Shown here piece by piece: positions 17,501-41,169 of a stretch of 64,000 nucleotides of DNA. Location of the stretch: assembly GCA_016183985.1 (NCBI GenBank), contig JACPDN010000013.1, positions 62,001 through 126,000 on the forward strand, written 5' to 3'. The position numbers and the translations under genes were made by a program. This DNA comes from Pseudomonadota bacterium. Lineage in GTDB: Bacteria; Pseudomonadota; Alphaproteobacteria; Dongiales; Dongiaceae. The notes beneath the pieces are model-generated. The model searched no databases, was not told the DNA's origin, and saw only the letters and a program-made list of their open reading frames with translations. Every line of letters begins with the position of its first letter. The first letter of the stretch is position 1.

Positions 17501-17534
17501 GTGCACATTTTTTTAATATAGTGCACAATTGTAC
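17501..17534 (+). promoter_or_regulatory. Candidate promoter/operator of the MCP-SBP fusion gene
   Basis: Direct repeats GTGCACATTT (17501) and GTGCACAATT (17521) 20 bp apart flank a TAATAT -10-like box (17514-17519); second copy continues into palindrome ACAATTGT. Confidence 0.4.
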
Positions 17535-17584
17535 GACTTTAATCCGGTCATCAGAACCGGAACGATGACTGGCAGGGGGCAACA

Positions 17585-19270
17585 TTGGCGAATTCCGATG
17601 GGGCGGATGCCCCGGACCACCTTGATTCTTGGGCGATCGAACTGGGCCTTGGGGGTCTCGAAAGCCTGCAGCACGGCATCGCCCGGGTGCTCGACGCCCA
17701 ATCGCTCTCCTTGGGCGAGATCGCTGAACGCAGCCAGCGCATGAGTGCCGCCCTTAACCAGTCGAGTGACGAAGTGCTGGCCAGTGGCCGCATTGCTGGC
17801 GATCTGCAGCAGGCATTGGCAGCCGAAATGGCCGCGGTGCTCGCCAACATCAAGGCCGAGCTCGATGCGGTCGTCATCGCGATCGAGAGCAAGGCCGGCG
17901 ACGCGCTCACCGTATTGCGCGAGATCGAAAGCATCGCCAAATCGGTGAACCTCCTCGCCCTCAATGCCACGATCGAGGCCGTACATGCCGGCGAGCAGGG
18001 CAAGGGTTTTGCTGTCGTGGCAAGCGAAGTGCGCCAGCTTGCCCAGCGCACCATGCAGAGCGCCAAGGAAGCCGGCCGCAGCATCGATTTGACCGAGGTG
18101 CAGAAGCGCGTTGCTGGGACGGCCGCGAAATCCGACCAGATGCTGGGCGAGATCGCCAGCCACTTGGCGCGGGAACTGGATCGCCTCAATGCCAATTTCG
18201 ATTCCATCAACCAGCGCATCGACGAACTCAAGGACAATAACCGCGTCATCTCGGTAGCCGTACCCCAGGCGACGGCCCGCAATGACGGCGTCGTCGGCAA
18301 GTCGCGCTGGTCGATGCAACTGGCCGAGGAATTGGCCGCCGCCCTCGATGATGGCACCGACGCCGTGCGCAACGTCCTCAAGCGCCATCATTTGCCGAGC
18401 AGCGCCGATTTCGATCGCTTGGCCGATATCCAGCGGCGCGGCACGATCCGCATCGCGGTGGAACCGGCCTTCGTCGGTCTCTCCTTCCGCTTGCGCCCAG
18501 GCGGTCCGCTCATGGGCCTCGACATCGACTACGCCACCGCCTTTGCCAAATGGCTCGGCGTGAAGACGGAGTTCGTCGAATATCCTTGGGACCAATGCAC
18601 CGAATTGCTGCAATTGGGGCCGAAGCCTGGCGAGGCGCCGGCCGATCTGGTCTGGAGCGCGCTCCCACCCAATGCCGCCTATCGCGGCACGGCCTTCTCC
18701 GAAAGCTATACCTATCTCAACTATTGCCTGGCGCGCCGTGCGGGCGACCAGCAGATTCGCGGCGTTGCCGATCTCGCCGGCAAGGTTCTGGGCTGCATCA
18801 ATGATCCCGGTGCCTTTGCGACGCTTGAGGCCGCCGGCATCCGCTGGGCGGCCAATGCCGGCAAGCCGGGCGGTACCGTGCGCCTTGCCAATCTCATTGC
18901 CTATTCGGATCAGAGCCAGATCCACGACTGCCTCGTGGATCGCGCGGTGGATGCCTTTGCCGTCGACCAACCGATCTACTTCTGGGCGGCGACGGGCGCT
19001 GAAAGCCGCTGGAAGGACAAGATCGAATTGCTGCCGGGCAATCTTGCGGCCGCCCCCTGGTATTATGCCGTTGGCGTCGCGGCGACTGGTGCCAGCTATG
19101 CGCTCCTTGCCAAGGTCAACGCGTTCATTCGCTGGTTCCGCGATCAGCCGGAGCGCGCGGTGCTAGAGAAGAAATGGCAGGGCCAGCCGCTCGCCGGCAC
19201 CAGCACTTATCGTGACGAACCCGGCAACCTCATGGGCGAGGATGACCTGGCCCGGCTCGCTGCTGGCTGA
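17585..19270 (+). CDS. Predicted cytoplasmic methyl-accepting chemotaxis signalling domain fused to C-terminal SBP_bac_3-like domain
   Basis: MCP hairpin tip '[40 protein letters not shown]'; then '[53 protein letters not shown]' typical of family 3 solute-binding proteins; no signal peptide or TM visible; TTG start with AGGGGG upstream. Confidence 0.85.
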
Positions 19271-32905: not shown

Positions 32906-33101
32906 ACTGCCCGAGCCTGTTTCAGGGATTTTATTGCCAGTTGCTTTACCGGTGCCGGCGCTTTGGGAGATTGATCACAGCAACCAATGCTCGATGAATG
33001 TCGGCCGCGAGACTTCGACCGACGGTTGATCTGGCTCAAAGATTCGCGGCTCCGTTCAGGCATCCTCTTTCGAATGATTCTTGATCGAGGGAAAAGCGCG
33101 C

Positions 33102-33536
33102 ATGGGTTCACTCGCCGACAATGACATCACGCCGATCTGGTCCGAGGCTTTTGAAACCGGGGATCCGGAGATCGACCGCCAGCACCAATGTTTGTTGGTG
33201 GACAGTGTACGCCTCAAGGCACTCGTCGAAAGGGGTGCTCCGCGGGATGAGGTCATAGCGGCCCTTACCGCGTTGATCGCAGATTGCTCCGCTCATTTTC
33301 GCTTTGAAGAGGCGATGCTGCGCAACACCAACTTCCCGCGTGCCGAGGTGCATGCCGGTCAGCATCAGGCGATCGAAGCCATGTTGCAGCAACTCGCCAA
33401 CATGATCGCCGATCCGAGTGGCACGGCGCCGGAGAGCGACCAGCTTACTATAACCATGGAACAGAAGATCATCGAAATCATCGTGCGTCACGATCTCGAT
33501 TTCAAATCGCATCTGCTCGCCGTTCATGGGCGCTAG
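33102..33536 (+). CDS. Bacteriohemerythrin / hemerythrin-domain protein
   Basis: '[11 protein letters not shown]', '[31 protein letters not shown]' hemerythrin ligand pattern. Confidence 0.9.
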
Positions 33537-33564
33537 CTCGGCATCAGGTCATCGGAGACGGACT

Positions 33565-36054
33565 ATGCTCAAGACATTCCACAATTTGCGCATCGGCAAA
33601 CGCATCTTCATTGCCCTCCTGATTCCGATGCTTGGCCTGCTGGCTGTTTCTCTCCTCGCCGTCGCCGATAAATACCGGCTGTGGTCCGAGATGCGGCAGC
33701 TGCAATCCATGGCCGAACTGGCGCCGGAGATCAGCGCCTTGGCGCATGAGCTGCAGCGCGAGCGTGGCGCCACCGCCATCTATCTGGGCAGCAAGGGGAC
33801 ATTGTACAAAGCCGAACTCGCCGATCAGCGCCAGGCGACCGATGCGCAGATCTCCACGCTGCAATCAGGCCTTGGGGCGGATGAAATACGGATACTCGGC
33901 GCGGTGGCAGGGCCAGCCGGAGATGCGATCGAAGCGCTCGCCAAGCTGCCGGAGACGCGCCAGTCGGCGGACGCGCTGGGGATCGGCGTTGCCGACATGG
34001 CCGGTTATTACACGCCGATCATTCGTCAGCTTATCGCCAGTGTCGAAAAAATGGCGCCGCTCAGCCAAAACGCGGACATGACGCGCGCCATCCTTGCCTA
34101 TGCCGCCTTCCTCCAGGGCAAGGAGCGGATGGGCGTCGAACGCGCCATGGGCGGTGCCGGCTTCGGTGCCGGCAAGTTCGATGGCGAACTCTACCGCAAA
34201 TTCGTCGGTCTGATGGCGGAGCAATCCGCCTATTTCGATCGGTTCAATTCGATGGGTGAGGAGCGACTGACCGGGGCCCTTGCCGAACTGGCCGGCGTGC
34301 CGGCATCGGTTGAGGTCGACCGGTTGCGCAGCGTCGCCCTCTCCAGCCTCCAGTCGGGCGATACCCAGGGGATCAAAGCCGGCGACTGGTTTGTCGCTGT
34401 CACCAGCAAAATCGACGCGTATGAGAAGGTCGAAGCCGATATCGCCGCCGATCTCGTCGGCCGTGCGCAAGCGTTGGGCAATGTGGCCCGCAACGTCCTG
34501 CTTTACGTGCTGGCCGCTGCCAGTCTGCTGCTCGCCGTTACCGTCCTTCTCGGCATGTCGATCGCGCGCGGCATCACGCGACCGATCGCGCGGATGACGT
34601 CGGTCATGACGCAGCTTGCCGCCGGCGACCATTCCGCGACCGTTGAGGGGCTTGGTCGCGGCGATGAAGTGGGTGACATGGCCAAGTCTGTCGAGGTGTT
34701 CCGCGAAAGCATGATCCGGGCCGATCAATTGGCGGAGGAACAGAACGTGGCGCAGCGCGAGCGGGACAGCCGGCAGGCCAAAGTGAATTCCTATATCGGC
34801 CAGTTTGAACTGACCATCCGCAGCGTTCTCGATGGTCTCAGCCATGCTGAAGAGGTGATGGGCACCACCGCCGTGGGCGTGGACAAGGGTGCCGCCGACA
34901 CGCGCAATGAATCGGCCTCCGTCGCTGCAGCCGCCGAAGAATCGAGCACCAATATTCAATCTGTCGCAAGCGCCACGGAAGAACTCGCTGCCTCGATCGA
35001 CGAGATCAGTCGGCAGATCAACCAGTCGGCGGAGCTGACCAACACCGCCGCCGGCATCGCCGACAGCACGGGGCAGAAGATGACGGACCTGGTCGGTACC
35101 GTGGGCAAGATCGGCGATATCGTTCGCCTGATCACCGACATTGCCGAGCAAACAAATCTGCTGGCTCTCAACGCGACGATCGAGGCTGCCCGTGCGGGTG
35201 AAGCCGGCCGTGGTTTTGCGGTCGTCGCCAATGAAGTGAAATCGCTCGCCAATCAAACCGCCAAGGCGACCGAGGATATCGGCCGCCAGATCAATGAGGT
35301 CCAGGCCGCGACTGGGGATACGGCGCAGTCAATTCATCAGATCATGGAATCGGTTAAGCAGATCAACGAGGTCTCTTCCTCCATCTCGGCAGCGGTCGAA
35401 GAGCAGGGCGCCGCCACGGCCGAGATCGCGCGCAATGTCGAACAGGCCTCGGTCGGCAGCGCCATGGTGACGACCAGCATCCACCGCGTTCTCTCCTCCG
35501 CCGAAAGATCCGCCGGCCTTGCCGCAGATATTTCGGTTTCCTCGGGCGATCTCTCGACGCAGACCGCCACGCTGAAACAAAATGTCGCCAGTTTCCTCGA
35601 TAAGGTGCGCAAAGCCGACGGTGGCGATGCGGGCGACCTGGTCGAATGGAACGACAGCCTGACCATCGGTCAGAAGGAGATTGACGACGAACATGGTCAG
35701 ATCGTGGCGACCATCAACGATCTGCACCGCGTCATTTCATCCGGTGCCGGTGCTGCCCGGGTCGAGGCCAGCTTCCGGCGGATGATGGAATACACGCATA
35801 CCCATTTCTCGCACGAGGAAGCGCTGATGGATGCGCGGCATTTTCCCGAATTGGCGGAACACAAGCGCGCCCATGACAACTTCGTGCGCCGCCTCAATCA
35901 GCTACATGATCGCTTCCAACAGGGCCATCGGGCAGCCGGGACGGACCTGCTCAATCTGCTCAGCAGCTGGTGGATGACGCATATTTCTACCGCGGACACC
36001 CAGCTCGCGCAGTTCTTACGCGGTGCGACAGCCCGGGCGGCTAGCGCCAGATAG
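33565..36054 (+). CDS. Methyl-accepting chemotaxis protein with nitrate/nitrite-sensing (NIT) domain, HAMP, MCP signal domain and C-terminal hemerythrin domain
   Basis: NIT-like '[16 protein letters not shown]'; TM + HAMP '[24 protein letters not shown]'; tip '[50 protein letters not shown]'; hemerythrin 'IDDEHGQ...[11 protein letters not shown]...HKRAHDNF...[13 protein letters not shown]'. Confidence 0.93.
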
Positions 36055-38290: not shown

Positions 38291-39436
38291 ATGACCCGCG
38301 GCATCTACATGGACTGGAATGCGACCGCTCCGCTGCGCTCCTCTGCGCTGGCGGCGATGTCGGCCGCGTTGCAGGAGGTCGGCAATCCGTCCTCCGTCCA
38401 TGCCTTTGGTCGCCGCGCCCGCGCCTGGGTCGATCATGCCCGCGATGCGGTGGCAAATCTCGTCAATGCGCGTTCGCCGCTGGTGACCTTCACCTCCGGC
38501 GGGACAGAGGCCAATAACCTGGCGCTCCATGCACGCCAGGGCCGCCCGCTTATCGTCAGCGCTATCGAGCATGAATCCGTGTTGCGTCCGGCACGCCTTG
38601 CCGGTGCGCAGATCGCGCGGGTGAGCCGCAATGGCGAGATCGATGTGGCGCATCTTGCCTATCTCATCGACAAGGCCGAGCGGCCGGCTTTCGTTTCGGT
38701 GATGCTCGCCAATAACGAGACTGGCGTCATTCAGCCGGTGGCCGAGATCGCACGTGTTGCGAAGTCGAAGGGCGCGCTGGTGCATTGCGATGCCATACAG
38801 GCGGCGGGCCGTGTGGCCGTCGATATCAACGAACTCGGCGTCGATTACCTGACGCTCTCCGCCCACAAGATCGGCGGACCGCAGGGTGTCGGCGCGCTGA
38901 TCCTCGGCGGTGATCTGCCGGTCGAGCCCTTCGTGCAGGGTGGTGGGCAGGAACGCAATCGTCGCGGTGGCACCGAGAATGTTGCAGCCATCGCCGGCTT
39001 CGGCGCGGCGGCGGAAGAAGCGGCAACGCTTGCCGATGCGGATCGGATCGCAGCCTTGCGCGATCATCTGGAGGAACGGGTCGCGGGCTTCGGGCTGCCG
39101 GTGACGATTTTCGGCCGCGCAGCACGGCGCCTGCCCAACACGACCTGCTTTGCCAGCGGCACCAAGACGGCGGAAACGCTTGTCATGGCGATGGATTTGG
39201 CCGGTATCGCCATCTCGGCGGGCTCGGCCTGTTCGTCGGGCAAGGTGCGGCCCAGCCATGTCATCTCGGCTATGGGCTTCGATGCTGCGACATCGGGCTC
39301 GGCCATTCGGGTGAGCTTGGGCTGGCAGAATGGCCTGGAAGACATAAATCAGTTTGTAGCGGCCTGGACGCGCGTGCAGCGCGGGAATGCTGCTCGTAGT
39401 AGCGACGCTGCGGATGCGCGCATCTCGGCAGCTTGA
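38291..39436 (+). CDS. Cysteine desulfurase family protein (first copy, NifS-like)
   Basis: 'YMDWNATAPLRSSALAAM', 'LSAHKIGGPQGVGALIL', 'AISAGSACSSGKVRPSHVI'. Confidence 0.92.
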   Translation: MTRGIYMDWNATAPLRSSALAAMSAALQEVGNPSSVHAFGRRARAWVDHARDAVANLVNARSPLVTFTSGGTEANNLALHARQGRPLIVSAIEHESVLRPARLAGAQIARVSRNGEIDVAHLAYLIDKAERPAFVSVMLANNETGVIQPVAEIARVAKSKGALVHCDAIQAAGRVAVDINELGVDYLTLSAHKIGGPQGVGALILGGDLPVEPFVQGGGQERNRRGGTENVAAIAGFGAAAEEAATLADADRIAALRDHLEERVAGFGLPVTIFGRAARRLPNTTCFASGTKTAETLVMAMDLAGIAISAGSACSSGKVRPSHVISAMGFDAATSGSAIRVSLGWQNGLEDINQFVAAWTRVQRGNAARSSDAADARISAA

Positions 39437-39461
39437 GTGAATGGAAGGGTGAGTAGGTAAG

Positions 39462-40733
39462 ATGAATATCGCGAACCAGAACATAAAGTCGGCGAACCAG
39501 GACAATGCGGGCGTGAATCTCCCGAAGATGCCGATCTATCTGGATTACCAGGCGACGACGCCCTGCGATCCGCGCGTGGTCGAGGCGATGCTGCCTTACT
39601 TCACCGAGCATTTCGGCAACCCGCATTCCAGGAATCACAAATACGGCTGGGATGCCGAGGCCGCCGTCGAAAAGGCGCGGGCCCAGATCGCCAGCATCAT
39701 CAAGGCCGATGAGAAGGAAATCATCTTCACCTCGGGCGCCACGGAATCGAACAACCTCGCCATCAAGGGTGTGGCGCATTTCTACAAGGACAAGAAGAAC
39801 CACATCATCACCACGAATACCGAGCACAAGTGCGTGCTGGATTCCTGCCGTCATCTCGAGCTCGAAGGTTTCAAGATCACCTATCTGCCGGTGCAGCAGA
39901 ACGGCCTGATCAATCTCGACGAACTCAAGGCCGCCATCACGCCGCAGACCATGCTGGTCTCAATCATGGCCGTGAACAACGAGATCGGTGTCATCCAGCC
40001 GCTCGCTGAAATCGGCAAGATCTGTCGCGAGAAGGGTGTGTTCTTCCACACAGATGCCGCGCAGGCCGTGGGCAAGATCCCGCTTGATGTCGACGCGATG
40101 AAGATCGATATGCTCTCGATCTCCGGCCACAAGATTTACGGGCCGAAGGGCATCGGTGCGCTCTATATCCGCCGCAAGCCGCGTGTGCGCTTGGAGGCGT
40201 TGATCCATGGCGGTGGCCAGGAGCGTGGTTTCCGTTCCGGCACGCTGCCAACCCCGCTTTGCGTAGGGTTGGGCGAAGCCTGCGCCATTGCCGAGAAGGA
40301 AATGGGCGCCGAGGCCGATCGCCTGAAGAAGCTGCAGCAACGCTTCCTCGACGGCGTTCGCGCCAAGCTTGATGAGGTCTATCTCAACGGCGATGCCGAA
40401 CACCGCATCCCGGGCAACCTCAACCTTTCCTTTGCCCATGTCGAGGGCGAGGGCCTGATGATGGGGATCAAGGATCTCTGCGTTTCGTCGGGTTCTGCCT
40501 GCACCTCGGCTTCGCTGGAGCCCTCCTATGTGCTCCGCGCACTGGGTGTCGAAATCGAGATGGCGCATACTTCGCTCAGGATCGGCATCGGCCGATTCAC
40601 GACGGAGCAGGAAGTTGACTATGCCGTCGAACATATCGTTCAGGCGGTGCAGCGTTTGCGTGAGATGAGCCCGTTGTGGGAAATGGCGCAAGCGGGCATC
40701 GATATCAAATCGATCCAGTGGGCCGAACACTAA
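39462..40733 (+). CDS. iscS: Cysteine desulfurase IscS
   Basis: '[36 protein letters not shown]', '[20 protein letters not shown]', '[23 protein letters not shown]'. Confidence 0.97.
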
Positions 40734-40770
40734 TCAGTCGGGCACTGCGAAGAGTTCAAAGGAGCACATC

Positions 40771-41169
40771 ATGTACAGCGATAAAGTCGTCGATCACTAC
40801 GAGAACCCCCGCAATGTCGGCGGTTTTGCGAAGGAAGAAGCGGGCATCGGCACGGGCCTCGTTGGCGCACCGGCTTGCGGCGACGTCATGAAGCTGCAGA
40901 TCAAAGTCGGTGCCGACGGTCGCATCGAGGATGCGAAATTCAAGACCTTCGGCTGCGGCTCGGCCATCGCCTCGTCCTCGCTCGCCACCGAATGGGTGAA
41001 GGGCAAGACGCTTGACGAAGCGGCGAGCATCAAGAATACCGAGATCGCTCAGCATCTCGCTCTGCCGCCGGTGAAGATCCATTGCTCGGTCCTTGCCGAG
41101 GATGCGATCAAGGCCGCGATCAAGGACTACCGCGAGAAGTCGGGCGCTGGTGAGAAGGCTGCAGAATGA
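40771..41169 (+). CDS. iscU: Fe-S cluster assembly scaffold IscU
   Basis: 'MYSDKVVDHYENPRNVGGF', 'VGAPACGDVMKLQIKV', 'LPPVKIHCSVLAEDAIKAAI'. Confidence 0.97.
   Translation: MYSDKVVDHYENPRNVGGFAKEEAGIGTGLVGAPACGDVMKLQIKVGADGRIEDAKFKTFGCGSAIASSSLATEWVKGKTLDEAASIKNTEIAQHLALPPVKIHCSVLAEDAIKAAIKDYREKSGAGEKAAE

Follow-up and report, generated by a model that had tools for sequence, protein, structure and literature searches.

What does a solute-binding domain do at the C-terminal end of a chemoreceptor, and on which side of the membrane does it do it? The question is raised by a gene in a 64,000-nucleotide stretch of Dongia DNA (all of which is called the window here). Solute-binding proteins (SBPs) are described as extracytosolic presenters of ligands, and the Pfam SBP profiles also pick up certain cytosolic proteins and sensor domains (PMC9602780). 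The earlier note, made from the sequence, had described a single open reading frame containing an MCP hairpin and then a complete family-3 SBP domain. The coordinates and the strand that it gave are correct, as are the tip of the hairpin and the order of the domains, and the reading frame is intact over its 561 codons. The features of the locus are as follows.

17501..17526, + strand: candidate operator GTGCAC-N14-GTGCAC, intergenic, in the promoter region upstream of the MCP-SBP gene
17540..17542, + strand: in-frame stop codon TAA, 45 nt upstream of the start, bounding the N-terminus of the MCP-SBP reading frame
17574..17579, + strand: ribosome-binding site AGGGGG, 5 nt before the TTG, seen in the sequence
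17585..19270, + strand: MCP-SBP fusion gene, 561 aa, TTG start
17873..18262, + strand: MCP signalling domain PF00015, residues 97-226 (Pfam E 2.4e-22, 80 bits, cut-off 34.6)
17933..18064, + strand: conserved hairpin tip, residues 117-160
18416..19183, + strand: family-3 solute-binding domain (periplasmic-binding-protein type II), residues 278-533, from Pfam, the AlphaFold2 model and Foldseek

A frameshift or an assembly join of two genes, which the earlier note had itself raised against its reading, is ruled out, with full-length homologues of 38-91% identity having the same domain order in independent genomes. The MCP-then-SBP order was found in more than 30 genomes, spread over Alpha-, Beta- and Gammaproteobacteria, and is kept by all of the homologues collected; it is therefore not the product of assembly. 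The fusion is present in Dongia and other Dongiaceae (10 of the 17 genomes of the order) and in 5/289 sampled Alphaproteobacteria, and also in MAGs assigned to Rhodospirillales, Rhodocyclaceae and Hyphomicrobium. It is found in Pokkaliibacter, Pseudomonas sp. WN033 and other gammaproteobacteria, being carried by 18 of 117 genomes in Pokkaliibacter's family as against 1 of 369 in a class-wide sample. No plasmid-borne copies of the receptor were found. One genome (G910) has two diverged copies (L149 and L153), which fall in separate parts of the tree. In a Dongia MAG (genome G003, locus L018, 4131-5816) the receptor copy contains a TAG in frame shortly ahead of the hairpin tip, and is either a pseudogene or a MAG error.

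The candidate operator is the only exact match to its pattern within the whole window. It is conserved in a 91%-identical relative (L009) and degenerate in L018. Scans for sigma-70 promoters and for terminators found nothing.

No transmembrane segment or signal peptide was found in the 561-residue protein, using hydrophobicity windows and a check of the N-terminus. The hydrophobicity peaks at 1.68 over 19 residues, three of them charged, compared to 2.72 and no charged residues for a membrane MCP of the same genome. The in-frame TAA and the absence of any other start codon between it and the TTG at 17585 mean that no signal peptide or membrane helix has been missed upstream; the TTG start and a G-rich ribosome-binding site are moreover kept in two Dongia relatives (L009 and L018). 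A missed N-terminal export or membrane sequence is ruled out by the upstream stop, the hydrophobicity and the conserved start taken together. The signal peptide or lipoprotein export found in the SBPs of ABC transporters is likewise absent. Having neither a membrane segment nor a signal peptide, the protein is a soluble chemoreceptor, in agreement with the earlier claim that it has no hydrophobic stretch or export signal. The cytoplasmic location proposed at the same time is supported by the same bounded N-terminus and absence of membrane segments, and we infer that the receptor works in the cytoplasm.

Pfam matches were judged against gathering cut-offs. Both PF00015 and, after it, PF00497 (SBP_bac_3; residues 288-533, E 5.9e-12, 45.9 bits, cut-off 26.4) exceed theirs, which confirms the MCP output domain and the order of the two domains. 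The tip pattern N..IEA..AGE.G.GFAVV is present, and the tip residues N127, I130, E131, G136, G139, F142, V145, L152 and T156 are conserved across the homologues, E131 being retained in 34 of the 35 that have a residue there. Residue 134, the counterpart of Tsr R388, is a histidine here and is a mixture of arginine and histidine among the homologues. There is one match (residues 71-80) to the strict methylation-site pattern [ASTG]2-x2-[EQ]2-x2-[ASTG]2, and the C-terminus, DLARLAAG, lacks a Tar/Tsr-type pentapeptide. Coupling to CheA and CheW is presumed.

The AlphaFold2 model (built from a 15-row alignment, with a mean pLDDT of 80.8, rising to about 90 over most of the C-terminal domain) has hairpin helices at residues 15-134 and 136-165/170-256, giving about 120 residues per arm. 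The hairpin had been called short, and with arms of this length it is not notably so. After the second arm the model has a short helix and then a two-lobed alpha/beta domain, in keeping with the SBP-type fold expected there. Foldseek matches this domain to glutamine-, arginine- and ornithine-binding proteins, with AncCDT and AncQR also among the closest solved folds; the TM score normalised to the target is 0.82-0.84 against GlnBP. Pfam, the model, Foldseek and the absence of membrane segments thus all support the earlier suggestion that an SBP fold has been recruited as a C-terminal intracellular sensor. In the genomes tested, scores of the SBP part are about 500 bits against its own family, versus at most 58 bits to other SBPs.

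The earlier note had also suggested that the receptor senses amino acids, and here the pocket does not support it. The comparison is a sequence alignment to E. coli GlnBP at about 20% identity, the GlnBP sequence having been confirmed against 1GGG. In this alignment GlnBP R75, the arginine that binds the alpha-carboxylate, is replaced by A365 in the Dongia receptor and varies in the homologues (G, A, E, R, N and others), while T70 becomes P361 and K115 becomes I405. GlnBP D157, which contacts the alpha-amino group of the ligand, corresponds to D461, found in 35/35 homologues with a residue at that position; D10 corresponds to E293 and F50 to W335. An INDP loop (405-408), Q443, H447 and W467 are almost invariant among the homologues. 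With R75, T70 and K115 lost while D461, E293 and W335 are kept, the binding site is therefore, on the evidence of the alignment, conserved but different from the usual amino-acid site. Such a pattern would suit a cationic amine without an alpha-carboxylate.

Clues to the ligand come from the genes around the receptor. Nine of about 37 homologues, belonging to two separate clades in a tree of 37 homologues, lie inside methylated-amine gene clusters, either for the N-methylglutamate (NMG) pathway (gmaS-mgs-mgd) or for the trimethylamine (TMA) pathway (tmm-tdm-dmm). The GmaS-Mgs-Mgd pathway has been described for Methyloversatilis (PMC5023235) and Ruegeria (PMC13390433). The receptor is flanked by gmaS-mgsABC and by purU-mgd genes at two loci, L024 of Pseudomonas sp. 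WN033 and L025 of a gammaproteobacterial MAG. The mgd proteins there match sarcosine-oxidase-like models with scores below the soxA/soxB cut-offs, as expected for N-methylglutamate dehydrogenase. In four Dongiaceae genomes of one genus the receptor is divergent from mgdA; mgs genes are in the receptor region in two of these, the stretch examined being too short in the other two, and at locus L074, from this genus, gmaS is in the region as well. Two further gammaproteobacteria have the receptor in third place behind tmm and tdm, on the same strand and with a gap of about 65 nt. Both of these genes pass their curated cut-offs (tmm with 838 bits against 675, tdm with 1134 bits against 1100), and dimethylamine-monooxygenase-like (dmm) genes, purU and folD lie around them. 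In a third TMA-linked gammaproteobacterium (L148), tmm, tdm, dmm-like genes and amt surround the receptor.

It is worth adding that in both NMG clusters of L024 (5071-5802, PF03483) and L025 (5179-5847) a B3/4-domain gene lies 10 nt upstream of the receptor, and that a class-I glutamine-amidotransferase-like gene is near the receptor in two different gammaproteobacteria (L148, 6160-6843; L023, 2223-2915).

The Dongia receptor gene itself is outside a pathway cluster, its neighbours (by eye) being aroQ-accBC and dsbA-like genes, and the mgd-mgs-gmaS cluster of this genome is on a separate contig (C10). A functional link to aroQ or accBC was considered and rejected: the neighbourhood is common to Dongia mobilis (L020) and was not seen in homologues outside the genus. 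Cognate ABC permease genes are absent from the immediate neighbours of the receptor in the window, as read by eye. Elsewhere in the window, at 33081-36051, a bacteriohemerythrin-like reading frame (151 aa, by eye) overlaps the 5' end of a long gene for a membrane MCP (842 codons, counted from the first start), and the two may form an oxygen-sensing pair. At 38291-41166 there are two consecutive cysteine-desulfurase-like genes and then an IscU-like gene (by eye).

Co-occurrence across genomes points the same way as the clusters. In Pokkaliibacter's gammaproteobacterial family mgsA is present in 17 of the 18 genomes with the receptor versus 18 of the 99 without it (Fisher p 5.7e-10), and in the alphaproteobacterial sample in 5/5 versus 34/284 (Fisher p 3.5e-5), although these tests ignore the relatedness of the genomes and so overstate the certainty. 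The exceptions are G698 and the MAG G003, which lack mgsA at the threshold, and the MAG G302, which has only a 41% partial match. Together, the gene neighbourhoods and the co-occurrence narrow the sensing of a metabolite, as suggested earlier, to methylated-amine or NMG metabolism. We therefore consider that the protein is a soluble chemoreceptor whose C-terminal SBP-type sensor most likely responds to a methylated amine or a metabolite of the NMG pathway, a reading to which we give a probability of about 0.6. Its relatives lie within, or co-occur with, genes of methylated-amine catabolism, and the receptor therefore probably lets the bacteria adjust their course to the state of their methylamine metabolism.

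A mechanism can be proposed. Two receptor chains would form the usual antiparallel four-helix MCP bundle. From the topology of the model, the second arm should end at the base of the bundle, next to where the first begins, which would put the sensor at the same end as in ordinary receptors; the SBP-type clamp, joined to the end of the C-terminal arm, would act on the hairpin from its base, as N-terminal sensors do. Closure of the clamp on a cytoplasmic ligand would alter the packing of the bundle, and with it the activity of CheA at the tip. The likeliest ligands would be mono-, di- or trimethylamine, or an NMG intermediate (gamma-glutamylmethylamide or N-methylglutamate). The receptor would then report the supply and catabolism of methylamine, and not the concentration outside.

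The strongest competitor is a cytoplasmic sensor of amino acids or of general nitrogen status (glutamine, glutamate or ammonium), the tie to methylamine being indirect, in that these pathways feed nitrogen and glutamate. The closest solved folds, being Gln- and Arg-binding proteins and AncCDT/AncQR, speak for it, as does the position of the receptor next to amt in L022 and L148; a Rhodocyclaceae MAG is among the genomes with this arrangement. However, GlnBP's carboxylate-binding Arg is not conserved, nor are its Thr and Lys, and the co-occurrence is with mgsA, a gene missing from 82 of the 117 genomes of the gammaproteobacterial family. An amino-acid or general nitrogen receptor is on these grounds unlikely, and less likely than the methylated-amine or NMG reading.

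Somewhat more doubtful again is a cytoplasmic sensor of some unrelated metabolite, for which the linkage and co-occurrence would reflect relatedness and the shared ecology of motile, metabolically versatile proteobacteria. Many homologues belong to unlinked clades with diverse neighbourhoods (among the other gammaproteobacterial homologues, most lack methylamine genes to a distance of about 10 kb), and the statistics carry no phylogenetic correction. Against this, in two clades the receptor gene sits directly in NMG and TMA clusters, and the contrast in mgsA between 17/18 and 18/99 holds within one family. It is very improbable that the SBP domain has lost ligand binding altogether and become an oligomerisation or protein-interaction module: the canonical ligand residues are indeed lost, but few parts of the protein are as conserved as the predicted cleft side (E293, P294, F296, W335, INDP 405-408, Q443, H447, D461 and W467), which is unlike a degraded site.

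The proposed sensor of methylated amines or NMG metabolites has partial parallels among known systems. In TlpD of Helicobacter pylori, a soluble MCP with a C-terminal CZB sensor, a full-length structure shows that the layout works (PMC12871147); both proteins are soluble MCPs that carry the regulatory ligand domain after the signalling hairpin, although CZB is a small zinc-binding helical bundle and TlpD has an N-terminal PAS domain in addition, whereas the Dongia receptor has a type-II PBP fold. The reversed domain order pointed out in the earlier note is therefore unusual, as it said, but not unprecedented. With GlnBP/HisJ, AncQR and AncCDT the receptor shares the family-3 SBP fold and the amine-contacting aspartate, and it differs from GlnBP/HisJ-type SBPs in being fused to an MCP, in having no signal peptide or membrane segment, and in the three lost pocket residues. 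MtpA of Methylobacterium aquaticum 22A, a soluble MCP for methylotaxis (PMC10613068), similarly has no transmembrane region and ties taxis to one-carbon metabolism, but in it the MCP signalling domain alone was detected and an SBP domain is absent. Venus-flytrap (SBP-like) domains serve as sensors in BvgS-type sensor kinases (PMC5829827); the flytraps there are periplasmic and N-terminal to the kinase. The dCache_1AM chemoreceptors bind methylamine, dimethylamine or trimethylamine, and arose from an amino-acid sensor whose motif changed (PMC10104139). This parallels what is proposed for the MCP-SBP receptor, except that dCache is an extracytoplasmic fold, mostly in membrane receptors. A literature search found no MCP with a C-terminal SBP_bac_3 domain and no chemoreceptor in NMG or TMA clusters; its coverage of reviews on cytoplasmic chemoreceptors was incomplete, and an earlier mention is possible.

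The receptor represents a dedicated and conserved branch of the SBP fold that is not exported and serves a soluble chemoreceptor as its sensor, and its genomic linkage points to a concrete class of ligand. A broader proposal, which we make tentatively, is that these proteins may form a cytoplasmic chemoreceptor family whose SBP fold, once tuned to amino acids, has been adapted to methylated amines or NMG metabolites, so that it senses the cell interior and links swimming to methylated-amine catabolism. If true, this would be a second example, alongside dCache_1AM, of an amine sensor made from a fold that binds amino acids, and it would provide an intracellular sensor for methylated-amine taxis, bearing on nitrogen and one-carbon cycling in the sea and in soil.
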